The notes under the pieces were generated by a model. The model worked only from the letters and a program-made list of their open reading frames with translations, searched no databases and was not told the DNA's origin. Of a DNA stretch of 64,000 nt, positions 44,144-50,765 are shown piece by piece. This DNA is from Apteryx mantelli. Lineage: Eukaryota; Chordata; Aves; Apterygiformes; Apterygidae. Positions within the stretch are counted from its first letter, which is position 1; each line of letters opens with the position of its first letter. Where the stretch lies: positions 9,953,501-10,017,500 of the forward strand of contig NC_089981.1 of the NCBI RefSeq assembly GCF_036417845.1, in the 5' to 3' direction. The translations under genes were made by a program, and so were the position numbers.

Positions 44144-44149
44144 CACATG
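44144..44149. repeat. ERV target-site duplication, left
   Basis: CACATG, identical to 50760-50765, directly flanks the LTR. Six bases is typical of alpha/beta-type retroviral integrases. Confidence 0.95.
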
Positions 44150-44635
44150 TGTCGCGGTCCGCGGGAGTGACGGGAAAGAATCATACGCATTCACAGAATG
44201 CAGGTTCAATTCCAACTTTATTCGGCAATTTGCCCATCTTATATATGTTTGTGCAGTCGTACACTTTGCTAGGCCAATCACCATGCAGATTATGTCACAG
44301 GTAGCCAATCATGGCACCGATCACGCACGCAGCGATCATGCCTTGTACCTTGCTACTTATTTAGCAAAGCTATCTTACCCTTAACCTTGGTTCCCACTGG
44401 CTTCTGCTAGTTTATCTGTACTTTCTCAGGATGTATCATTTCCAGCTGCGCCAGTGTCCTTGGTGGACTACTTCAAAGCACGTAGCAGTGGCTATAGCCT
44501 GAGGCCTAAGGCTTCAGCAAATTTAGCTACTAATGCTAAGCAAGTTGTGCTAAGCAATTAATCCTAAACAGTGTTAGTTCCATGCTCTATATCTCATATA
44601 GATTATTGTTCTGAAGCACCGCAAGGGCCCCAACA
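44150..44635 (-). repeat. 3' LTR of ERV
   Basis: 486 bp; sense-strand ends are TGTTGGGGCC and GCGACA. In sense order it holds a CCAAT box (GATTGGC at about 44275), a TATA element (ATATATAAG, 44238-44246) and the polyadenylation signal AATAAA (44217-44222), the usual U3-R order. Confidence 0.95.
44217..44246 (-). promoter_or_regulatory. LTR TATA element and AATAAA
   Basis: On the minus strand ATATATAAG at 44246-44238 lies 16 bases upstream of AATAAA at 44222-44217, so initiation would fall very close to the polyadenylation signal and R would be short. The same arrangement is at 50370-50341 in the 5' LTR. Confidence 0.7.
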
Positions 44636-45990
44636 CTTCCCCCTCTTCTTTCAAATAATAGATCAACCATTTTCTGTACCCGAGCTAGGATGCATTGTAG
44701 TATACAAGGCCCACAAATCAATGGGAACATGCCCACGACACCTACGGTAATCAGCTGTTTTAGTCCAGCTGCCAACCAGGGCCCTATAGCAAGCATATTC
44801 AACCAATCAAACAGTCCCCACAAGTTTTCACCATCGTCTTCTTGCAGTTGTTTTGTTAACTCCTTCAATTTTGCAATGCTTGTATGTACTGACTCAGAAT
44901 GATCACTCAGGTTCATACAACACATTCCTTCAAAGTCTTGACGGCCATGGCCTTGGGCCAATAGCAAAAAGTCAATTGCAGCCCGATTTTGTAAGGTGGC
45001 ATATCTAATTGAATCTACGTCTGTTAATAAGGTACTTAAAGCAGTACTAGTAGCATTTGCTTCTTTTGCAAGCCAGCATCCTAATCTGTTAAGTTGTGAT
45101 AAAGCATGAGCAGTCCCTATTCCTGCAAAAATACTACTCAAGATACGTTCTGCTGGATTCCAAAATTCTACGTTACTATCGCAACCTGACATAAAGCTGT
45201 GGGTGGATCGCTTTGCTCGAAGATGGACCGTTCCATCAATTAACCATTTTTCAGGATGGAATATTGTCAAAAGTCCAAAGATACATGGTCCCCCCACAGC
45301 TTTACCTGGTACGCCTTTCCAGGCTCTCTGACCACGAATTAAGAATATCTTAGCAGCCAACCCTATGGGTTGCGGTCCAGGTGTTATTTGACCTGAGGTG
45401 GTGTGATTACACCATACAGATGTATTGGCATAAATGCCTGAGGGAGATACATCAACGTCGCCCTCTTTGGTAGGTGCCCTTGCAGTATAATTTAGATAAA
45501 AGCAGACTGCAGCCTGTGTAATTCCCAATAAGTCAAGTTCTTGTGGCTGCAGTGGCAAGGCAGGAAAATTGTGTACATTGTGCATATTGTTATACCATGT
45601 GGAAATATTCCACTCCTGCGTCTCCATTCTGCATCGCACCACCACCATTTGGGCTGAAGTGTACCTGGCGCACTACAATTTGCTAACACCGTATCATTGT
45701 AAAGAGACCCCATGAGCTGTATATCAAGAGGAAGTCCGGTCAAGCAAGTGTGGAAAGGGTCTGATGGCATCGTCATTGATAAACAAGGTGTCCGTATTGG
45801 TTACATTCGCAAGAGTCACCCAGATGTTGCCACGTTTCCAGGTGCCTGGTCCGACGGGCATGCTTGTTGCTCCGAGGATGAGGCAACATAAGGTCATAAA
45901 CGTTGCGACGGCACCCATCGTAACCGAATTCCTGTAGAAACACAAGCATTTCCCCTCCCCCAGGTTATCAGTTCCATTGGTCCCACCCAT
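44587..45990 (-). pseudogene. env: ERV env (frameshifted)
   Basis: A retroviral envelope remnant. A hydrophobic signal segment (VATFMTLCCLILGATS) begins in the first frame (45990-45724), overlapping the end of integrase as in alpharetroviruses. The surface unit then runs through a second frame (45776-45492) and returns to the first (45648-44587), so two compensating frameshifts lie near 45770 and 45650. A furin-type site RAKR sits at about 45225-45214. The transmembrane unit has an immunosuppressive-like region and a CC pair (GMCCMNLSDHS), but the first cysteine expected in CX6CC is Arg. A membrane anchor (LITVGVVGMFPLICG) follows and the frame runs into the LTR. Nonfunctional as it stands. 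Confidence 0.88.
44636..44652 (-). promoter_or_regulatory. Polypurine tract
   Basis: The minus strand reads GAAAGAAGAGGGGGAAG immediately before the 3' LTR, the primer for plus-strand DNA synthesis. Confidence 0.92.
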
Positions 45991-46720
45991 TGGTCGGAAA
46001 CCAAGTCTTTGACCAAAACTGGGGGCTTTTGTATTGATCTCATGTCTGTGGCTTGCTGACGTTCGAAATTATTATGACCTGCTTCATCACAATTCAAAAA
46101 ATTAAGGACATATAACGCTTTGTGTAGTCATTCTTGTGGGGTGAGCAGTGTCTCCCCCCCTTTTTTTTTTTTTTGTTTTTGTAGCATGTCTTTCAGGCTG
46201 CGGTGTGACTGCTCAACAGTGGCTTGGCCAGCTGGGGAGTGGGGTATGCCTGTTACATGAGAGGTGCTCCATGTATTGAGGAATTGACGTACACGGCCTG
46301 AGCAATAGGCTGGGCTGTTGTCCGTTTTGATGGTTGTTGGCACCCCCAAGACCGCAAAGCAGGCAAGCCAATGGCGAGTCACATCCCTAGCCTTTTCACC
46401 AGTGTGGGCGGTGGCCCACAAAAATCGAGAATGGGTGTCGACTGTGACATGTACATATTTAAGATGACCAAATTCTAAAACATACGTAATGTCTGTTTGC
46501 CCTAATTCATTAGCCTTTAAAACTCTAGGGTTCGCCCCTTCCTTTGAAGGCATTGGGGTGAACTACTGACAGTCTGAACAAGACAAAAATAATGTCTCTG
46601 GCCTGCTGGATGGGTAGCTGAAACTGCCTCTTCAGCGAGCAGGTGTTTTGATGAAAGAAGGAGTGAGACAGCCTGGCTTGTTCCAGAAGGTTGAGTACCA
46701 CCGCTGGCATGGCTGCAGCA
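45894..46720 (-). pseudogene. pol: ERV pol: integrase
   Basis: Zinc-binding H-H motif (SHSFFHQNTC, near 46660) followed by a frameshift at about 46545. The catalytic core has the three acidic residues in QTDITYV, KTDNSPAY and QATVEQSH (46505 to about 46190). A stop at about 46130 precedes the C-terminal DNA-binding part (PPVLVKDLVSDQWVGP and RLRWVPSQRL, to 45894). All three domains of the strand-transfer enzyme can be recognised, but the frame is broken twice. Confidence 0.88.
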
Positions 46721-47348
46721 TCAGCACGTCGATTTCCCTCAGCGATGGGTCCGGCCAGGTCCGTGTGTGAGCGTACATGTAAAACATAAAAGTCATGCTT
46801 TCTGTGATTAATAAGAGTCCAAAGAGCATAAAGTTCTGCAAAGAGCAATGGATTGGAGATCTCACGAAGAAAGGAGGCCTCCAACCTTTGCACAAGGCCT
46901 GCAGCATAACAGGAATCAGTAACAACATTTACAGGTTCATTGGCACAAAGTTCAAAAGCCATACGGATGGCCACCATCTCCAGTACCTGTACCGACCCTC
47001 GTTCCTGTGTACGTACGGTTGTTCTCCATTGTTGCATGACAGGGTCCTGCCACATGATAGCAGCCCTTTTAGACCTGCCCGAAGCATCGGTGAAGACAGT
47101 CAAATCAGGAACCGGGACAGGGCGACAGCGACTAGGGGTAGGCTGCCAGCCTCTGCCCATAACCTGTGCCGAGGATAATGGATGGAAAGCTGTCCAGTGA
47201 AATCAGCAAGGGCTACTTGAAAACCCCAATCTTCTGAAATTAACCAGTTCAAATTGTCTGTAGTGGCTGGGATATAAATAACTTCAGGGTCACAGCCATT
47301 CATGGTTTGCAGTCTCTCCCTGCCCTTAATGATAAGCTTAGAATACAT
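46721..47348 (-). pseudogene. pol: ERV pol: RT connection and RNase H
   Basis: The connection segment (IIKGRERLQTMNGCDPEVIY, 47348-47160) shifts frame near 47155 into an RNase H domain. That domain has VFTDASGRSKRAAIMW, VLEMVAIRMAF, VVTDSCYAAG and HVRSHTDLAGPIAEGN, so the D-E-D catalytic residues are present. It would degrade the RNA of the RNA:DNA hybrid during reverse transcription. Confidence 0.87.
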
Positions 47349-47438
47349 TTTTGTAAGAGTCCATAAGTTTTTCGGTGGAGTATGTTACAGAAAAATCCAT
47401 TCCAAAATGTGCAAGGGATCTGTGCTTTTTGTATCCCA

Positions 47439-47739
47439 TCAAAGTAATACTGCAAAAGGCTGGAAGCAGTTAGCAATCAGAGCTAAATAAAAAGGCAATG
47501 AGAAGTCATGTCGCCAACTCTGGCATTCCTCCAGAGCACGGGCACATAACTGGAGTGCCTTTCTCGCTTCAGGTGTCAAAGTTTGAGTGGAAGTTAGGGA
47601 GGTGTCCCCTTTGAGCTTTTCAAAAAGGGAGTGTAGCAGTTCCGTGGAAAGTCCTAGCACTGGTCAGAGCCAATTAATGGCTCCTAATATTTTTAGTAGG
47701 TCATTAAGCATGACAATATCGTTTAATTGCAGTTGGACT
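47439..47739 (-). pseudogene. pol: ERV pol: RT thumb remnant
   Basis: Immediately after the captured VAPA piece, pol resumes in the thumb of reverse transcriptase (LNDLLKILGAINWL, a TGA stop at about 47667, then PVLGLSTELLHSLFEKLKGD and LTPEARKAL). The fingers and palm with the YxDD catalytic motif, and protease, are missing from the element. A frameshifted stretch (47349-47438) joins it to the connection domain. Confidence 0.82.
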
Positions 47740-48035
47740 GGCTGCAATTACAACAAGAAGTGAAGGAAGAGAATTAGAGCCATTATCTCTGAGGATCATA
47801 GTCAAAAGGTTGTAGCATTACTTTGAATTTGAGGTCGGTGGGTGGATCGAGCACCAGGATCTGCTTGTGCTTAGCCAGAGCCCTGGCGGCCGCCATCTCG
47901 CTCGCTCGCTACCGCGGGGGGGGGGGGGGGGGAGGAGCGGGAGGGGGAGGCGGGGAGGCCGGGCGGCGGCTCGGTGCTGGTGCTGGCGCTGAGGGGCGGC
48001 CGCCGCGTCGCCCCCCCCCCCCCCCAGCGCGGTGC
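47740..48035 (-). other. VAPA: Captured host VAPA cDNA inside the ERV
   Basis: Between gag and pol, in ERV sense, lie a G+C-rich leader with GCGAGCGAGCGAG, then ATG (47896-47894) and LAKHKQILVLDPPTDLKFK. Without any intron this joins VMLQPFDYDP, then after a frame change RDNGSNSLPSLLVVIAA, at 47740. The three pieces match the N-terminus (exon 1), a later part of the MSP domain, and the start of the C-terminal membrane anchor of VAPA, the ER tether for FFAT-motif proteins. From memory, VAPA is matched rather than VAPB (AKHxQILVLDPPTDLKFK). Everything between the pieces is missing, and the first junction looks like an exon border. The mini-ORF has 37 codons and ends TAA at 47783. It is an intronless, internally deleted transcript fragment and is unlikely to make functional VAPA. 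Confidence 0.87.
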
Positions 48036-50074
48036 TGCCCCACAACGGGAACATCCTCTTTTTTTTTTTCTTTTTTTGTTCCCCCTTGCTCGTACATCTG
48101 AGCCGCCAGTGCAGCAGCAAGGGATTCGGTGCTGTGGTGCTTAGAGCCTGCATTTTGACAAGCCCGCACCATCTCTGCAATAGTGCAAGTTGCTCGGTTC
48201 TTAATCGCCTGCAAGGCTCTCGCACAGTCAGCATTCGCATTCTCAAAAGCAAGCTGCCTCAGCAACAGTGCCTGAGCCTCCTCATTCTCAATCTGCCGCT
48301 CAGTTGCTGCATATAACCAATCAACAAATGCAGGGTACGGTTCTGTAGGTCCCTGTAATACTTTTGCAAATGACAAACTTGAATCGGTGTTTGTACCTGT
48401 CAGTCCACGCAAGGCTTGTAAAACGAACTTTGCAATCCTCTCATATGTTTCTCTATTATATTCCATCTGGGTTGCCGGATCCGCATGCAGCCCCTCTCCA
48501 GCCAATTGGTTATAGCCTACTCCTTGTCCGTTATTCAAGTTATCAACCGCCTGTGCGGGACATTTGTCTCGAAAGTCCGAAAGCCACACAGCATACTGAG
48601 TGTTAGTCAAATCCATTTTCATTAACGCTTTCCAGTCACAGGGAGTCATCATATACGTAGTAGAAAGCACTTCTAGGAATGTGATAGTATGAGTAGATTG
48701 AACTCCGCTTTCTTTTACCAATTTCTGCAGTTCCTGCCACTTATTCAAAAACACCAGCAAAGAGGTGGGCCCCAGAATCAGTTCGGCAAGGGTGCGAATG
48801 TCGCTCGGCACCAGGTTTTGATATTTCACCAGGGCTCTCAGCTGCACTTGCACTTGGTGGTTGTTTATCCCGTACTGCATTACCAGCTGTTGCAGCTTTG
48901 TTACCACTTGCCAATCCAGAGGCTCCCACCTCGTCTGTCCCTGACCCGTGGTCACCACCAGGGCTACTATAGGGAAAAACTGCATGTCCCCAACCAGTTC
49001 AGCATTCTGAATGATCCCGCGCCACCTTTTTGCCATGTCAAAGTCAGGGTCCCTAGGTGGCAGGGCTTTCTCCGGTGCTCTCGGTAAACGGTCCAAAATC
49101 GTTCGATACTCCTTTTGTGTTAAAGGGTTTTTTTTCCAGGCTTGCAGATGTTGCTCCGCCTGCTCAAGGGACCACGTCCCTTTGAGTACGTTGGTAATCA
49201 CCCAGTCTCTGGGGGCGATCTCTTGGTTCTCCTGGGATCCGCCGGCAGGATCCCCGGAGAACCGTTCCTCAACCGCTTTCAGGCCGTCCACAATGGCCTG
49301 ATGTGCCTTCTTATACGCCTCCCTCACATGCGCCTTTTTCGACCCCCTATCCAGCCTCCTCATTTCCTCCAACAGTTCCTCCATTTTTTTTGAATATTCA
49401 GTCAGATCAACGCTTTCCTCCTTAGGTAATGGCACAGCGGCCGGATCCACTTCCATGGGGGGAGCGGACGGCTCAGGGGGGGTGGCAAAGGCGTCAGCAA
49501 CGTCCCCTTTCTTGTACGGTGGCAAGTCCTCATATCCTGTGCCAGTCCCCCAAGCCTCCCGCTCTAGCTTAGAGAGAGGTGCCGCACACGGCAGGGAGGG
49601 CTCATCTGTCACCGAGGGCCCCCCCACGGATGGTGTATCAAAGACGGGCACCGCGCACTCCGCTCCTTCCGTGCACTCCGCTCCGGGCACCGCACACTCC
49701 GCTCCTTCCGCGCACTCACTCCCCGGCGAAAGTGCTGCCGCGGAGGGCTCCGCCTGCAGCGCCCTCCATATGGCAGCAGTCGCCTGTGCCTCCCCGTGCA
49801 GCTGTTCGATCATGAGCCGCACGTCTCGATATGTTTTGGCCAGACGCCTGGCCTCTTTTTCTCCGTTCTGGATGGATTCCCACAGTTCCTTCCCAACCTT
49901 CTTCCAGGCTTCCGCGCTAAAGACCTGGCTGGACTCCCGTAACAAACCGCGCCGCCTTCCCCACAACAGCAAGTCCACCAGCGCCTGGCGCTCCACCTGT
50001 CACTCTGTTTGTGCTGCCACTTGTAACAATTTTTCTAACGTGGCCTTTTCTACCGCTGATACAGCGTTTCCCAT
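47909..50074 (-). pseudogene. gag: ERV gag, fused to host sequence
   Basis: The likely true start is ATG at 50074 (MGNAVSAVEK, with a glycine-2 myristoylation signal), in frame with a TGA at 50002-50000 (codon 25) and then open for 695 codons. A PSAP late motif lies in PPEPSAPPMEVD and an LPPY element nearby. The capsid is well preserved, with the major homology region QGPTEPYPAFVDWLYAA near 48350-48300. Nucleocapsid is cut: only one CxxC half-knuckle (CSRCG, out of frame after an A-run at about 48060) remains. Translation then runs through the G+C-rich VAPA leader to TAG at 47911-47909. The TAG is followed in the same frame, four codons later, by the VAPA ATG. Confidence 0.9.
49646..49723 (-). 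repeat. 39-bp tandem duplication within gag
   Basis: Two 39-base units starting GGGCACCGC at 49646 and 49685 encode two near-identical 13-residue runs containing GAEC and EGAECAVP, in the segment between matrix and capsid. Confidence 0.85.
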
Positions 50075-50253
50075 ACCGCCCGCCGCCTCACAAGGGCGCC
50101 TGACTCACCGGTCAGAAGAGTTGCGTAGCTACGACTTTTCTTTTCCCGTCTTTTTTCAGACGGCCAGGCTCGTTTTCCCCGGGCACGAGCCTCCCGGGCG
50201 GTATCCACTCCCGTTACTCGAACTCTTAGCAAAGCCAGCTTCTCCTCTGCAGT
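50075..50253 (-). other. ERV leader
   Basis: Untranslated region between the primer-binding site and gag, where packaging signals and the splice donor are expected; no specific element could be assigned by eye. Confidence 0.6.
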
Positions 50254-50271
50254 ATCACGTCGGGGTCACCA
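50254..50271 (-). promoter_or_regulatory. Primer-binding site (tRNA-Trp type)
   Basis: The minus strand reads TGGTGACCCCGACGTGAT two bases after the 5' LTR, the site complementary to the 3' end of tRNA-Trp that avian leukosis-type viruses use to prime reverse transcription. Confidence 0.93.
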
Positions 50272-50273
50272 GA

Positions 50274-50759
50274 TGTCGCGGTCCACGGGAGTGACGGGAA
50301 TGAATCATACGATTTCACAGAATGCAGGTTCAATTCCAACTTTATTCGGCAATTTGCCCATCTTATATATGTTTGTGCAGTCGTACACTTTGCTAGGCCA
50401 ATCACCATGCAGATTATGTCACAGGTAGCCAATCATGGCACCGATCACGCACGCAGCGATCATGCCTTGTACCTTGCTACTTATTTAGCAAAGCTATCTT
50501 ACCCTTAACCTTGGTTCCCACTGGCTTCTGCTAGTTTATCTGTACTTTCTCAGGATGTATCATTTCCAGCTGCGCCAGTGTCCTTGGTGGACTACTTCAA
50601 AGCACGTAGCAGTGGCTATAGCCTGAGGCCTAAGGCTTCAGCAAATTTAGCTACTAATGCTAAGCAAGTTGTGCTAAGCAATTAATCCTAAACAGTGTTA
50701 GTTCCATGCTCTATATCTCATATAGATTATTGTTCTGAAGCACCGCAAGGGCCCCAACA
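50274..50759 (-). repeat. 5' LTR of ERV
   Basis: 486 bp, same length as the 3' LTR. By eye it differs at four positions, all within 44160-44190/50284-50314. TATA at 50362-50370 and AATAAA at 50341-50346 (minus strand) would drive the provirus. Confidence 0.95.
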
Positions 50760-50765
50760 CACATG
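50760..50765. repeat. ERV target-site duplication, right
   Basis: CACATG, matching 44144-44149. Confidence 0.95.

Follow-up and report, generated by a model that had tools for sequence, protein, structure and literature searches.

Uptake of host genes by retroviruses has mostly been inferred from oncogenic viruses that were selected for their phenotype. In gag-onc viruses, host cDNA lies between the viral ends, gag is truncated, protease and reverse transcriptase (RT) are lost, and helper proteins are needed. Non-autonomous LTR retrotransposons are structurally defective elements that are mobilized in trans. Class II (beta/alpha-like) retroviruses are marked by two CCHC knuckles and by a dUTPase that precedes protease. 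VAPA, the host gene considered here, is a housekeeping ER tether.

Multi-copy endogenous retroviruses (ERVs) with captured host genes have been described in crocodilians. According to the parts of Chong et al. (2014, PMC4299795) drawn on here, CrocERV29 carries KIT-ligand and CrocERV31 carries nectin3; purifying selection maintains the captured open reading frames (ORFs), and the gain of KIT-ligand cost the ERV no domain. In one species, nine copies retain the KIT-ligand ORF in full, and there are six insertions of nectin3. A review (PMC4997597), in the sections used, covers co-packaging and template switching as well as patch repair through microhomologous host RNA. No VAPA-carrying ERV was recognized among the papers listed by searches of the open-licence PMC literature. 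Capture terms matched once in a paper on bird LTRs (PMC6523648), within its reference list, and no VAP term was found in the part of PMC13297096 consulted.

A defective provirus with host sequence in its center

The 64,000-nucleotide stretch analyzed here (the window; C4:9953501-10017500) contains a provirus on the minus strand, and genome-wide searches ran on the same 1.504-Gb assembly. The features of the provirus are as follows, in ERV sense:

50760..50765, target-site duplication, 5' side, CATGTG as read on the minus strand
44150..50759, minus strand, class II-like defective provirus
50274..50759, minus strand, 5' LTR, 486 bp
50254..50271, minus strand, primer-binding site, Trp-type
47909..50074, minus strand, gag, AUG at 50074, with p24 domains; ends inside the first CCHC knuckle
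48033..48044, minus strand, 5' junction, a patch common to the gag knuckle and the VAPA 5'UTR
47821..48044, minus strand, part of VAPA exon 1 (5'UTR and coding start, AUG at 47896)
47792..47820, minus strand, first ~29 nt of VAPA exon 3, exactly abutting the end of exon 1 without exon 2
47740..47794, minus strand, part of the last VAPA exon (exon 6), reading ...RDNGSNSLPSLLVVIAA; ~3 nt common with exon 3
46128..47739, minus strand, pol remnant: RT thumb, RNase H, and integrase; frameshifted
44587..46068, minus strand, env remnant: avian gp85-like and TLV_coat/TM matches; frameshifted
44150..44635, minus strand, 3' LTR, 486 bp, differing from the 5' LTR at 4/486 sites
44144..44149, target-site duplication, 3' side, CATGTG as read on the minus strand

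The gag frame meets an in-frame TGA 24 codons past the AUG at 50074 and reopens at 49999-47909; its product has one distant relative in the protein database, at 32% identity. The primer sites of this and related proviruses are named for what we take to be tRNA-Trp and a Lys-type tRNA. A block of ~305 bases on the minus strand, with limits at about 47740-48044, separates the RT thumb from the first knuckle, of which the first half is kept, and stands in place of most of the nucleocapsid (NC), the dUTPase/protease, and the catalytic RT. The first-pass annotation, which was made from the window alone, had described this arrangement correctly in most respects: the end of gag in the first zinc knuckle, the restart of pol in the RT thumb, the loss of protease and catalytic RT, and the LTR pair with its 6-bp duplication are all seen, and its view that capture preceded integration is supported. 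It had placed the block at 47740-48035; the start holds, and the other end moves to about 48044.

A 35-amino-acid frame (47896-47792) matches VAPA chains in the PDB (best E 4.5e-12). The host VAPA gene was located in the same assembly, at about 56.68-56.71 Mb of contig C2. The insert is 91% identical to exon 1 and the 5'UTR of this gene over 157 columns (E 1e-54), with a deletion in the 5'UTR relative to the gene. It is identical at 26/27 columns to the start of exon 3, two of these columns being the acceptor AG, and at 23/23 to exon 6 over the stretch compared. The PDB matches and the comparison with the gene confirm the proposal that the block consists of pieces of VAPA mRNA.

Exon 1 of the gene ends in CAAAG/GTGAGG (slash, exon border), exon 2 (153 nt) is bordered by AG and GT, and exon 3 begins with TAATGCTACAACC directly 3' of ACAG. 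The insert reads ...CAAAG/TAATGCTACAACC..., which leads from exon 1 to exon 3 with exon 2 absent to the base. About 29 nt into exon 3, it jumps to exon 6 via ~3 common bases. The host-derived block is intronless and joined at exon borders, and the GT/AG sites of the gene together with the exact exon 1-3 join bear out the earlier claim of a spliced transcript. Skipping of exon 2 would be in frame because its length is a multiple of three and its borders on both sides are of phase 1, and the captured mRNA was presumably an exon-2-skipped form. Alternatively, a deletion at two common bases (AG) may have removed exon 2. Inside the gene, just downstream of exon 5, we also noticed a second, diverged exon 5 (C2:56703968-56704108) that is 95% identical over 141 nt and is followed by GTAAGT.

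Two deletion forms and their relatives

The block in the window belongs to a family. We designate the form that joins exon 1, the start of exon 3, and exon 6 as D1, and the form that joins the start of exon 1 to exons 5 and 6 as D2. A 29-mer over the exon-1/exon-3 junction of D1 occurs, with at most 3 mismatches, at 131 places in the assembly, whereas its reversed control occurs at 0; the 100 of these 131 places that were listed span 30 contigs. Querying the assembly with 361 bp that span the block produced 40 scored matches (161 candidates), each almost full length and 92-100% identical. A query from the pol flank gave 40 scored matches of 147 candidates, 23 of them already known from the first query and 17 new; the block was present in 17/17 of the new loci. 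Counting the window provirus, 49 D1 loci were read (30 and 17 from these lists plus L095 and L096). With no more than 3-4 errors, the gag/VAPA junction was found in 46/49, the exon 1/3 junction in 49/49, the exon 3/6 junction in 49/49, and the VAPA/pol junction in 48/49; within the stretch read, the gag/VAPA junction was not found in 3/49 and the VAPA/pol junction in 1/49. Several independent insertions thus have the same viral/host junctions. The first-pass annotation was right about the capture but had envisaged one provirus, where there is a family at 131 places with two longer relatives.

Of the 131 D1 places, at least 27 (those among the 100 listed) lie on contig C11 (29.7 Mb, ~2% of the assembly), which is ERV-rich and possibly the W chromosome. 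Four D1 copies (L019-L022, C4:17.645-17.664 Mb) stand in tandem with an exact spacing of 6078 bp and identical 3348-bp stretches. This array reflects either recent unequal recombination among proviruses or assembly expansion; since its four copies share those stretches, not every D1 copy is a separate integration.

The two D2 loci, L049 (C44:18.53 Mb) and L050 (C2), have the gag/VAPA and VAPA/pol junctions in common with D1. They hold the start of exon 1, followed by exons 5 and 6, whose join falls exactly on the splice border (CACCTGAGA/GATGAAGG); the jump from exon 1 to exon 5 has a GCCC overlap. The D2 insert covers VAPA residues 143-230 (human protein numbering), and its junction occurs at 2 places in the assembly (control, 0). 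At the switch from VAPA to pol, copies read TTGCAGCC, which fits VAPA V-I-A-A and RT L-Q-P alike. Because D2 combines the outer junctions of D1 with an exact exon 5-6 join, the two forms point to a single capture event that took in more of the spliced mRNA; from this longer VAPA cDNA ancestor, D1 and D2 arose by separate internal deletions. A search of the assembly with the cDNA of exons 2-5 (9 matches; 8/8 candidates scored) revealed no provirus with VAPA exons 2 or 4. Its matches were limited to the exons of the gene, a gene on C18 that appears to be VAPB-like, the exon-5 duplicate within VAPA, and the two D2 loci.

In the VAPA part of L049, A>G and T>C changes account for 18/23 differences from the gene. 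Hypermutation over the entire L049 provirus was considered and rejected, as these classes make up only 26/72 changes in 1205 pol columns.

The 5' ends of these proviruses tell of exchange. D2 proviruses have a different LTR and a Lys-type primer site; the Trp-type site is found in the window and in 6/7 other D1 loci tested, with no primer site found in L063. The D1 loci L095 and L096 carry a leader that matches the D2 family (positions 64-901 of 901, 82%), and neither a Trp- nor a Lys-type site was found in them within 3 mismatches. This pattern suggests that recombination after capture exchanged the 5' end (LTR, primer-binding site, and leader) between lineages.

A query with the D2 leader scored 40 places of 154 candidates and returned six loci: L050, the D1 loci L095 and L096, L094, and the VAPA-free L092 (C17) and L093 (C9). 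The capsid of L092 and L093 is followed by zf-CCHC, zf-CCHC_5, dUTPase, and RVP domains, that is, by two knuckles, a dUTPase, and a protease in the class II order. Duplications of 6 bp, also in keeping with class II, flank the window provirus, three further D1 proviruses, and both D2 proviruses. A search for the parental pol with an ungapped degenerate pattern gave 0 matches; in IMG/VR, the RNase H-integrase piece returned 8 stretches, none of which was confirmed as a relative, and a junction 18-mer gave no match. L094 (C44:81.69 Mb) is a related provirus whose capsid breaks into non-matching sequence; it is neither captured nor a clear parent.

The two VAPA-free relatives allow the 5' breakpoint to be compared with uninterrupted gag, the sequences there being TGCGGGGCAGCA in L092, TGTGGGGCAGCA in VAPA, and TGTGGGACAACG in L093. 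Slid along each relative (1289 positions), the VAPA 12-mer scored highest at the breakpoint in L092 (11/12) and reached a tied highest score there in L093 (9/12). By longest exact run, the 9 nt at the junction of L092 are exceeded by 10 nt elsewhere; in L093, the junction has 6 nt, and an 11-nt run for this VAPA stretch lies ~320 nt downstream, in the dUTPase region. The 5' junction is thus not the best homology patch by this second measure, which lends weaker support to homology as a guide for the switch.

Spread, age, and coding capacity

Four of eight D1 LTR pairs (window, L051/52, L059/60, and L061/62; 486-488 bp) differ at 4, 4, 3, and 2 sites, a divergence of 0.4-0.8%, and the four proviruses are flanked by the 6-bp duplications noted above. 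At the neutral bird substitution rate of ~1.9e-9 per site and year, this divergence corresponds to about 1-2 million years. The remaining pairs are less regular. L053/L054 (C11:8.48 Mb) has unlike LTRs with 40 differences and no target duplication was found for it, probably as a result of recombination between two proviruses; L055/56 and L057/58 show only a partial LTR match, and L063/64 shows no pair. Given these mismatched, partial, or missing pairs, some D1 copies are recombinant or rearranged. The LTRs of L050 differ at 2/446 sites (target duplication ATATTC), and those of L049 show 7 differing sites and a gap of 24 nt (GTGAAT). The VAPA part of D1 differs from the gene by a mean of 3.8% (range 1.6-6.4%) over ~125 nt in 29/30 loci (L025, in which the motif is absent, was dropped), and that of D2 at 7/293 positions in L050 and 23/294 in L049. 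Judged by these divergences, the VAPA part is older than the LTR pairs.

Lacking most of NC, dUTPase/protease, and catalytic RT, D1 must, by established retroviral biology, have obtained these proteins from elsewhere. Its recent spread without a full set of replication genes suggests helper dependence, which the first-pass annotation had also proposed, with related proviruses as the putative suppliers in trans.

The captured sequence no longer encodes a VAPA product. The VAPA frame of the window copy is 37 codons long. The three protein pieces recognized earlier are indeed VAPA-derived, but the RDN...VVIAA piece lies in a different frame from the first two, and the middle piece covers no more of exon 3 than its first ~29 nt. 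In D2, the exon 1-exon 5 join departs from the VAPA frame. Reading Gag from capsid in 29 D1 loci, we found that it exits in frame 0, +1, or +2 relative to the VAPA AUG in 14, 8, and 7 loci, respectively. One of the 8 (L008) has an unreliable frame because the anchor is absent, L025 and L049 gave no Gag reading, and in L007 and L008 Gag stops earlier. All 14 frame-0 loci, which include the four identical tandem copies and a near relative of those copies, stop just upstream of the VAPA AUG, at a TAG that the gene, too, has in frame ahead of its AUG. We considered and rejected the idea that the VAPA 5'UTR, read in another frame, encodes a conserved Gag tail, since the exits divide 14/8/7 across the 29 loci. 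These results do not support the earlier analogy with acutely transducing viruses as carriers of a gene product, and at the protein level we reject the gag-onc comparison; neither an open host frame, often Gag-fused in such viruses, nor a conserved ORF of the crocodilian kind was found.

Poly-A, poly-G, and poly-C tracts near the VAPA 5'UTR (window 47910-48080 and L001-L030) differ strongly in length between copies. Changes in tract length shift the Gag frame from copy to copy. From the broken VAPA frame and the exit of Gag in all three frames, we infer that the VAPA remnant is a non-coding passenger.

Origin of the block and comparison with known systems

We consider it highly probable that spliced VAPA mRNA was packaged, template-switched into the virus, deleted internally, and amplified in trans as a non-coding passenger. 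A class II-like ERV would have packaged a spliced VAPA mRNA that had presumably skipped exon 2 before capture. During reverse transcription, the 5' switch would have led from the gag zinc knuckle into the VAPA 5'UTR at a short patch of homology, and a putative 3' switch from the last VAPA exon into the RT thumb; together they would have replaced most of NC, dUTPase/protease, and catalytic RT with VAPA cDNA. Internal VAPA sequence would then have been lost in at least two ways, giving the D1 and D2 deletions. D1 would have been copied to more than 130 places by proteins putatively supplied in trans by related proviruses, and its LTR, primer-binding site, and leader may have been swapped between lineages during this spread.

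Among the alternatives, read-through, in which a provirus beside or within VAPA gives rise to a chimeric transcript that is spliced, follows the classic oncogene model and, in the parts of PMC4997597 and PMC4299795 drawn on, is the general model for acute transforming viruses. The insert, however, has its start inside the VAPA 5'UTR and not at a splice acceptor, and a 5' join within a homology patch fits template switching at that point; we regard read-through as an improbable account of the whole insert, although it could have supplied the 3' part. Slightly less probable still is that the block was kept for a function, as GC-rich 5'UTR/exon-1 RNA acting in cis on packaging, stability, or translation, or through small-RNA or antisense control of VAPA. 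D1 is far commoner than D2 (131 versus 2 places), and its exon 1/3 and 3/6 joins persist in every locus read; this retention is partly a sampling effect, as the loci were found via the block or its flank, and the homopolymer tracts vary widely with no frame kept. It is tempting to speculate that a cis advantage, or a small-RNA hold on VAPA, explains the abundance of D1, such that a host 5'UTR was domesticated as viral regulatory RNA and no protein was transduced, but we give this idea equally little weight.

Patch repair, in which VAPA RNA served merely as a splint over a deletion in viral RNA and contributed short pieces of chance homology, never a longer cDNA, would account for the short, mosaic D1 insert and the homology at its 5' junction, and the sections used of PMC4997597 describe host RNA acting as a splint. 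The D2 copies tell against it: they have both outer junctions, residues 143-230, and the exact exon 5-6 join, so the ancestor was longer, and we judge patch repair the least likely of these three biological alternatives. An assembly or annotation artefact, including the false join at the insert ends that had been raised as a concern, is rejected at the family level and has a negligible chance of being correct, as the same join occurs at 131 places with none in the control, across 30 contigs among the 100 listed, and the junctions are almost uniform in proviruses with differing target duplications.

Template-switch capture followed by deletion thus stands as the preferred account. A single genome preserves the donor gene, uncaptured relatives, two deletion stages, and more than 130 descendants, which makes steps of the capture model directly testable: the spliced template, the homology at the switch, the order of deletions, the use of helpers, and the exchange of LTRs. 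The hybrid seems to have drawn no benefit from the host protein as it spread.

Like acutely transducing gag-onc viruses, the VAPA family has replaced replication genes with host cDNA. It differs from them in that a Gag-host fusion in the VAPA frame would require read-through of a stop (14/14 frame-0 loci), in that no growth regulator is involved, and in that the hybrid is heritable and multi-copy. It appears, then, that a growth regulator is no prerequisite for transduction. Like non-autonomous LTR retrotransposons, the family is defective and was amplified with LTRs and target duplications, whereas its foreign part is an identifiable spliced host mRNA that can be compared with the living gene. 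As far as the parts of PMC4299795 drawn on extend, CrocERV29 and CrocERV31 resemble it as multi-copy ERV lineages that captured host mRNA and later spread; in the VAPA family, by contrast, the ORF is destroyed, NC-PRO-RT is replaced, and the junction is present at 131 places. The VAPA family exemplifies a known kind of capture that ended differently: the gene taken up is a housekeeping ER tether, its coding capacity was lost, and the copy number became large.
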